This document shows positions 55,262 to 56,767 of a DNA stretch of 64,000 nucleotides, piece by piece. The stretch's first letter is position 1; every line of letters begins with the position of its first letter. Source of the stretch: Megamonas funiformis (GTDB lineage: Bacteria > Bacillota > Negativicutes > Selenomonadales > Selenomonadaceae); contig NZ_CP048627.1 of NCBI RefSeq assembly GCF_010669225.1, forward strand, positions 1,377,292-1,441,291, in the 5' to 3' direction. The position numbers and the translations under genes were made by a program. Below the pieces are notes generated by a model. The model saw only the letters and a program-made list of their open reading frames with translations. It did not search any database and had not been told where the DNA came from.

Positions 55262-56293
55262 TTGACTACTACAGATAATTCATTGACTTTAGGTATAGAA
55301 TCTAGCTGTGATGAAACTTCTGTTGCTATCTTACGCGGTGGCAGAGAAATACTAGCTAATGTAATTTCTACTCAAATTCCAATTCATCAAAAATTCGGAG
55401 GTGTCGTTCCTGAAATCGCCTCTCGTAAACATATTGTTAATATCATGCCTGTTTTAGATGAAGCACTTCATAAAGCAAATGTTACTTTAAAAGATATTGA
55501 TCGCATTGCTGTAGCGTATGGCCCAGGATTAGTAGGTGCTTTACTTGTAGGCGTATCTGCTGCCAAAACTTTGGCTTTTGCTTTAGATAAACCACTAATT
55601 GGCGTAAATCACTTAGAAGGTCATATCTTCGCCAATTTCTTATCCACACCTGAACTTCAACCACCATTTATGGCTCTCGTAGTTTCTGGTGGACATACTT
55701 CCCTAGTTCACGTAAAAGACTATAATCATTTTTCCCTAATGGGACAAACTCGTGATGATGCAGCTGGTGAAGCTTTTGATAAAGTAGCTCGTGTAATGGG
55801 ATTACCTTATCCAGGTGGCCCTCAAATTGATAAATTAGCTAAAGAAGGAAATTCTGATGCTATTGATTTCCCTATGGCATTAAATGAAAAAGGTAACTAT
55901 GAATTTAGCTTCAGTGGTCTAAAATCGGCTGTGCTCAATTATTTAAACAATATGAAAGCAAAACGCATCGAAATCAACAAAGCTGATGTTGCTGCTTCCT
56001 TCCAAAAATCAGTAGTTAATATCCTAGTGCATAAAGCTGTAGAAGCAGCTCGTCAAACCAACATGACAAAACTAGTACTTGCCGGTGGTGTAGCAGCAAA
56101 TAGCTCCCTAGAAGGACATCTCCAAAAAGCCTGCAAAGAAAACGGTCTAGAATTTTACTACCCAAGCAAAATTTTATGCACAGACAACGCTGCCATGATA
56201 GCCTGCCGTGGCTACTACCAAGCCCAAGCAGGAGACTTTGCCGATAGCAACCTAAACGCTATCCCTTATCTAGAATTAACTGACAAAAAATAG
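55262..56293 (+). CDS. tsaD: tRNA threonylcarbamoyladenosine biosynthesis protein TsaD
   Basis: A 343-residue ASKHA-fold protein that transfers threonylcarbamoyl to A37 of tRNAs. Motifs are [25 protein letters not shown], the metal-site [23 protein letters not shown] and GAFDKVAR-like [13 protein letters not shown], with [15 protein letters not shown] near the end. TTG start at 55262, nine bases after AGGAGG. The gene is complete. It is followed by the structured repeat pair described separately. Confidence 0.96.
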
Positions 56294-56298
56294 GGATT

Positions 56299-56486
56299 TA
56301 TTCATTTCTTTGGTGCCAAAGAAACGAACGAAAGAAATCACCGCAGATAAAATTTTAATTTTGAAAATAATTATCACTTCATACAACGCTTAGAAACTCG
56401 CTTCGCTCAAACATTCAGACTAAAACCGTATTCAGTGATAATTATTTTCAATAATCTTGCGATTACCATTAAAATTTTATAATGCG
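56299..56486 (+). repeat. Structured unit A: terminal hairpin plus three-way-junction fold
   Basis: Hairpin H: TTC-A-TTTCTTTGG (56301-56313) with CCAAAGAAA-C-GAA (56316-56328). Outer stem P1: CCGCA...ATAAAATTTTAAT (56341-56359) with ATTAAAATTTTAT...TGCGG (56467-56486). Inner stem P2: GAAAATAATTATCACT (56363-56378) with AGTGATAATTATTTTC (56434-56449). Small stem P3: TAATC (56452-56456) with GATTA (56461-56465), between P2 and the P1 return strand. The 55-nt loop of P2 contains ACTCGCTTCGCTCA and ACTAAAACCGTAT. No reading frame is convincing. Confidence 0.7.
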
Positions 56487-56544
56487 GAAAATAAAAATTA
56501 CAAATTATTATTTTATAATTGTTTTTTTAATAATACCAAAATTC
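56487..56544. other. AT-rich centre between units A and B
   Basis: Fifty-eight bases of almost pure A/T separate the two inverted units; a weak stem ACAAATTATT with AATAATTTGT-like pairing is possible. No gene or promoter is clear. Confidence 0.4.
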
Positions 56545-56742
56545 CCCGCGTTAGTAGATTTTACGGTAGCTAAAAGCTATTGGCAAAGATGAAATCATGG
56601 ATACGGTTTTAGTCCAACTGTCTGAGCGAAGCGAGTTTTGAGCGTTGTAGACATGATTTCATCTTTGCCAAAGTAAAATCTAATATTGCGGGCATATTTT
56701 CTTTTTGATTCGTTTTTCTTTTAAATAAAAGAAAAATGAATA
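56545..56742 (-). repeat. Structured unit B: inverted partner of unit A with different stems
   Basis: Reading the minus strand, the same parts occur in the same order. H: TTC-A-TTTTTCTTTT with AAAAGAAAAA-C-GAA (56709-56740). P1: GCGGG and TAGATTTTAC-type arms (56545-56564 with 56673-56692). P2: GGCAAAGATGAAATCATG (56582-56599) with its inverse (56652-56669). P3: TAGCT (56567-56571) with AGCTA (56575-56579). The P2 loop is about 85 percent like that of unit A by eye, but P1, P2, P3 and H have different sequences and are still paired. The A-C mismatch in H is kept. This covariation supports a real structure. Confidence 0.7.
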
Positions 56743-56767
56743 ATCTCTTATGAGTGGGCGATTTTTT

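Follow-up and report, generated by a model that had tools for sequence, protein, structure and literature searches.

The two facing units behind tsaD in Megamonas funiformis belong to a family which we interpret, with a probability of about 0.58, as non-autonomous, dispersed, REP/BIME-like hairpin elements that are recognised as a folded single strand, probably of DNA. The family, whose structure is conserved, is found in about one-tenth to one-quarter of the sampled Negativicutes and has no Rfam model or known driver; it would constitute a second large REP-like system that does not depend on RAYT. In the mechanism proposed here, a protein would read the loop and the shape of the strand bearing the GNA triplet, probably as single-stranded DNA that is either laid bare during replication or repair or extruded from the duplex. 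Each pair would form a single unit with one hairpin at either end; this unit would be cut and then joined into DNA just behind genes, and copies would lose the large hairpin after insertion and decay. Whatever enzyme is responsible, at least one near-complete carrier has no resident Y1, Y2 or reverse-transcriptase protein that the Pfam models used could detect.

Architecture of the two units behind tsaD

The window, a stretch of 64,000 nt of the M. funiformis genome, contains tsaD at 55262–56293 on the + strand (ORF list). The gene lies outside the element and its stop codon (56291–56293) abuts it, at a position that is unchanged in the element-free genome of a sister species. The element locus is intergenic, being flanked by tsaD on one side and by a membrane-protein gene on the other (ORF list). 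As the preliminary description had reported, two inverted units follow tsaD. In each, an A-rich joint connects a terminal hairpin to a core made of the outer stem P1, a long inner stem P2 topped by a large loop, and the small stem P3, and the computed folds agree with this layout.

Unit A occupies 56295–56487 on the + strand. Its terminal hairpin (56301–56328, +), delimited by inverted repeats and the DNA fold, reads TTC-A-TTTCTTTGG/CCAAAGAAA-C-GAA with one A.C mismatch, and is followed by an A-rich joint (56330–56337, +, by sequence) that nearly repeats the 3' arm of the hairpin (CAAAGAAA-type) and covaries with the terminal hairpin type from unit to unit. The core (56341–56487, +) forms a three-way junction according to inverted repeats and to both DNA and RNA folds, its outer stem P1 pairing 56341–56360 with 56468–56487. 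Stem P2 and the apical region span 56361–56451 (+), with P2 formed by 56361–56378 and 56434–56451 (inverted repeat I4 and folds), and P3 lies at 56452–56465 (+; TAATC/GATTA, DNA and RNA folds). The conserved apical loop, assigned by the covariance model, is found on the − strand at 56394–56415 (AATGTTTGAGCGAAGCGAGTTT) and includes a GC-GAA-GC mini-hairpin at 56400–56406; the model match itself covers 56394–56413 on the − strand (E = 4.3e-6).

Beyond an AT-rich spacer with no strand (56488–56542, by sequence), which varies among the other pairs, unit B extends over 56543–56745 on the − strand. Its core (56543–56693, −) is likewise a three-way junction, with P1 pairing about 56543–56566 with 56673–56693 (inverted repeat I2 and folds) and P3 at 56567–56579 (−; TAGCT/AGCTA, DNA and RNA folds). 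P2 and the apical region span 56580–56671 (−), P2 being formed by about 56580–56599 and 56652–56671 (inverted repeat I3). The conserved apical loop, on the + strand at 56617–56638 (ACTGTCTGAGCGAAGCGAGTTT) and again assigned by the covariance model, carries a GC-GAA-GC mini-hairpin at 56626–56632, and the model matches 56608–56647 (+) with 49 bits (E = 1.1e-12). The terminal hairpin at 56708–56741 (−) was delimited by inverted repeat I8, which is 94% complementary, and by the fold.

The three-way junction is the minimum-free-energy fold of both units, as DNA and as RNA. Minimum free energies corresponded to z-scores of −6.41 (unit A) and −9.37 (unit B) for single-stranded DNA, and of −6.90 and −8.73, respectively, for RNA; none of the 200 dinucleotide shuffles used as control in each test folded as well. 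The loop regions, which had been described as near identical, are 88% complementary over 41 nt, as expected of inverted copies, and the stems indeed differ in sequence yet pair, P2 and P3 both differing between A and B. The single loop of about 50 nt originally proposed holds as a large loop but not as an unstructured one, since it contains a further covarying stem, P4, plus the GC-GNA-GC mini-hairpin of the opposite strand.

Relatives, covariation and distribution

With only two copies covariation cannot be demonstrated, and relatives were therefore sought. A similarity search with the 456-bp region matched 58 stretches in the 2.57-Mb genome of M. funiformis (Selenomonadaceae), including four further whole pairs that are 82–86% identical and set in unrelated flanks; the remaining stretches comprise pairs that are one-sided or mixed, single units and degenerate clusters. 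The motif strands of these pairs face inward. Units could be assigned to types A, B and C, among which terminal hairpins are interchangeable, and P2 is not of equal length in A and B units. The hairpin type of unit A recurs in most other A units, and the claim that its terminal A.C mismatch is kept applies to most copies of that hairpin type; some B units, however, have the hairpin inverted and read G.T. Such inversion is seen in the B units at 1995, 2027 and 2260 kb (ATTCG..TGAAC in place of the usual ATTCA..CGAAT), and is reminiscent of the flip-flop of a terminal palindrome.

The family extends well beyond this genome. The exact 22-nt loop AAACTCGCTNCGCTCARACAGT, searched with zero mismatches, was present in 31 of the 300 Negativicutes genomes searched, which represent 14 of 97 genera, while the reversed loop, used as control, was found in none of the 300. 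A covariance model covering the apical 40 nt matched 29 of 120 Negativicutes genomes, including families missed by the exact loop, and found as many as 34 copies in a single genome. The loop also occurs in five other Bacillota genomes outside Negativicutes, one of which (G518) harbours about 40 copies, many more than 90% identical, that swap their outer arms as matching pairs. Related hairpins lie behind tsaD in several Selenomonas ruminantium genomes. At the Sporomusa-like loci (L150–L178), homology between copies runs past the hairpin on both sides, giving a full element of about 350 nt with a further GC-rich hairpin beside the stop codon. The A-unit hairpin GTTCATTTCTTTGATGGCAAAGAAACGAACCAAAGAAA of M. 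funiformis recurs letter for letter in a genome of another family (L092, genome G025), where 38 nt of terminal hairpin and joint are identical to those of the M. funiformis A units and the core differs; judged from this sequence identity, recent transfer or module exchange may have occurred.

Plasmid and phage collections yielded no match, and only two matching stretches were found among 2.9 million viral contigs, so that a phage element was rejected. The family had not been recognised in the preliminary description, and it is apparently undescribed so far: at the gathering threshold, neither the window nor 16 loci from other taxa matched any Rfam family, the element region gave only sub-threshold matches, none credible, at a relaxed threshold, and the literature on the loop sequences and on repeats in these genera contained nothing relevant and no description of the family.

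The concern that only two copies might exist was thus dispelled by relatives in the same genome and in many others, and the added copies keep their stems paired by compensatory change. Covariation, claimed earlier from two units, is now shown by 43 distinct copies in a loop-anchored ungapped alignment: 85.5% of P4 cells are paired, every P4 pair has undergone two-sided change (144 two-sided changes versus 42.5), and the covariation score is 0.720, compared with 0.201 ± 0.022 after shuffling and 0.09–0.194 in slid-partner controls. A previous tally, made on 74 copies, found 577 paired cells; shuffled sets averaged 403 and reached at most 433. P4 pairing is therefore maintained by compensatory change while the apical loop is near constant. 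Loop constancy in these sets is largely by construction, because the loop pattern served as retrieval bait; that the loop is conserved is supported independently by Megamonas-like copies found with whole units as BLAST queries and by partner hairpins unmatched by the bait.

The probable folded strand and the position of copies behind stop codons

Mismatches were counted once per sequence context, within helices and with three paired bases on each flank, on the strand carrying GAGCGNAGCGAG. G.T outnumbered A.C (48 versus 24, p = 0.006) and A.G outnumbered C.T (34 versus 13, p = 0.003), which indicates that the tolerated mismatches belong to this strand. From the mismatch asymmetry and an ultra-stable apex, we infer that a single strand, crowned by GC-GNA-GC, is the folded one. 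The G.T:A.C ratio of just 2:1 is a modest strand signal drawn from copies that are not fully independent; being lower than expected for a conserved RNA, it leans towards DNA.

The apex triplet is GCA, GAA, GTA or GGA in 152 of 167 distinct copies, and 156 copies have a GC/GC closing stem, 10 a compensated AC/GT stem and one a GC/GT stem, both counts being partly bait-biased. One copy has a GTAA apex loop, and partner hairpins outside the loop-pattern retrieval also carry a GNA loop. DNA mini-hairpins in which two G-C pairs close a GNA or GNNA loop are known to be ultra-stable, with a Tm of 78 °C for GCGAAGC (PMC4686876). The nearest-neighbour DNA energy model did not predict the mini-hairpin alone. 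The d(GC-GNA-GC) mini-hairpin, which matches the apex of the inferred folded strand, is known as a free DNA motif, whereas in the present family it sits at the tip of a genomic repeat; should the folded strand be DNA, this would be a natural use of a structure so far known mainly from chemistry. The fixed GNA apex also offers a ready bait for fishing out the recognising protein.

Position relative to genes is constrained as well. Copies are intergenic in 122 of 123 cases, and divergent gene pairs are rarer than expected around them. On the side of the terminal hairpin, corresponding to the 3' end of the GNA strand, the distance from loop to stop codon is 109–123 nt in 17 of 22 Megamonas-like cases and 107–130 nt in 26 of 29 Selenomonas cases. 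At the junctions, mostly 3–15 nt separate the stop codon from the element, in one orientation and behind unrelated genes; the spacing is longer in Sporomusa-like genomes because the element extends further there. Such tight, oriented placement makes target choice directly testable.

This placement also speaks for the main rival reading, which we regard as unlikely, namely that the element acts at the RNA level as a hairpin within the upstream transcript, in its 3' untranslated region, or within an antisense transcript, with a role in stability, pausing or translation and with its placement selected. A fixed orientation at 3–15 nt behind stop codons in two genera could reflect a function at mRNA 3' ends, the presence behind tsaD in several Selenomonas genomes would fit, and the recurrent internal loops could be RNA motifs. 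A parallel is provided by REPs within 15 nt of a stop codon, which affect translation, as proposed for those of E. coli (PMC12306157). However, the strand contained in the mRNA of the upstream gene shows mostly A.C rather than G.U mismatches, which argues that RNA of the upstream gene is not what is conserved. Furthermore, the paired units are read on opposite strands, the host genes are diverse, the orthologous sites of the sister species lack the element, and a search of the element region for intrinsic terminators returned no terminator-like site.

Pairs, apparent mobility and candidate drivers

GNA strands diverge in 26 of 30 neighbouring hairpin pairs, the remaining four being inner junctions of alternating arrays, and in 25 of the 30 one hairpin has an ACTGT loop and its partner a loop of another type. 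This predominance of diverging, heterotypic pairs suggests that the working unit is probably the pair, with two non-identical ends.

Orthologous sites were compared with the sister species G057, the sole other genome of the genus compared, as a check for empty sites. It lacks the element at four of them, namely behind tsaD (the window pair), at the 279 kb and 470 kb pairs and at the 2327 kb single, which points to insertions, or to losses in G057. The empty sites are too diverged for confident identification of a target duplication, none being clearly readable. The element is apparently mobile, a view founded on the number and dispersal of copies, their patchy presence and the empty sites, because the search for an associated transposase or reverse transcriptase found none.

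REPs are species-specific hairpins of 20–40 nt with a 5' GT[AG]G foot and an associated RAYT. The resemblance to BIME/REP sequences noted in the preliminary description holds for layout: like REPs, BIMEs and REPINs, the copies are extragenic and dispersed, form inverted pairs and alternating arrays, often lie within about 15 nt of stop codons and include mismatched hairpins. It does not hold for size, foot or RAYT association. The units are several times longer (190–350 nt), adopt a three-way junction with a conserved GNA apical loop, and have loops that are homologous across families; Megamonas-like ends read (G/A)TTCATTT or TTACTTTT, with no GTAG or GTGG foot in the element ends read by eye, and no Y1 RAYT gene flanked by the repeat was found.

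If the copies were a REP/REPIN family with a RAYT or IS200/IS605 (Y1 HUH) transposase as its driver, this would account for the inverted pairs, alternating arrays, extragenic and stop-proximal location and mismatched terminal hairpin; M. funiformis itself carries IS200/IS605 copies, and several carrier genomes encode RAYT-sized Y1 proteins. This explanation is nonetheless highly improbable. Y1 transposase is missing from carriers G089, G167 (a single contig), G262, G213 and G223, and present in several genomes lacking an exact loop match. The Y1 genes retrieved from M. funiformis have no element copy in the flanks examined, and those that were read sit in ordinary IS200/IS605 units; copies sharing the ends of a resident Y1 tnpA were not found. 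G518, the most amplified genome, has a single RAYT-like Y1 protein (L233, about 295 aa) with no repeat adjacent, and units of 200–350 nt contrast with the 20–40 nt of REPs. Elements of the IS200/IS605 group and their non-autonomous derivatives also have a folded single strand at each end, probably strand-specific recognition and mismatched terminal hairpins, but their ends are direct rather than inverted, several carriers of the present family have no Y1 gene, and its insertions lie near stop codons.

Other enzymes fared no better. Reverse transcriptase (PF00078) was absent from M. funiformis (G000), G262, G062 and G518, and Y2 (PF04986) from 11 of the 13 genomes tested, including G000, G167, G262 and G518. 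G262, a carrier rated 100% complete, has neither Y1, Y2 nor reverse transcriptase according to Pfam models, and an explanation by RAYT/REP consequently fails there. As general resident drivers, we therefore rejected a RAYT/IS200 Y1 protein, missing in several carriers and encoded by genes without copies, a group II intron, retron or DGR reverse transcriptase, and an IS91/ISCR Y2 protein. Recurrent neighbouring genes across the loci tested included none resembling a mobility gene, the largest clusters being ABC ATPases and ORFs of the element itself. The driver may be a resident protein of another kind or one lost after spread, or the copies may be mobilised by a host function.

We give little credence to an ordinary MITE, that is, an internally deleted relic of a DDE-type insertion sequence whose hairpins are long terminal inverted repeats. 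Small size, inverted ends, lack of coding sequence and high copy number are indeed shared with MITEs and fold-back elements, and patchy occurrence and empty sites would be explained. Conserved ends are typical of MITEs, whereas here the stems diverge compensatorily around an internal loop fixed across families, each pair joins two different hairpins, no target duplication is clear and no parent element with matching ends was found. Integron attC sites share imperfect hairpins, covarying stems and probably one folded strand; in the present family, however, the conserved part is the apical loop, and no cassette arrays were seen.

Recognition of a folded strand could, more tentatively, be extended to a new, gene-less class of mobile element, in which two different three-way-junction hairpins crowned by GC-GNA-GC may be read single-stranded by an enzyme other than a Y1/Y2 HUH protein or a reverse transcriptase, which would join them immediately behind stop codons, with a single orientation, in many Negativicutes families and other Bacillota.

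Decay by loss of the large hairpin is seen in several M. funiformis copies and in a Selenomonas element remnant behind tsaD (L045), which keeps the outer stem and has the inner hairpin deleted, and thereby shows a decay route. In M. funiformis, about three degenerate A/B half-units are repeated in tandem at C1:1497900–1498590 (L075), with a period of ~170 nt. Several copies and remnants also occur among type I restriction-modification-like genes (hsdM/hsdS-like by appearance) at C1:1858000–1871000 (L073) and near 777 kb (L076), regions that are possibly a hot spot for element copies.
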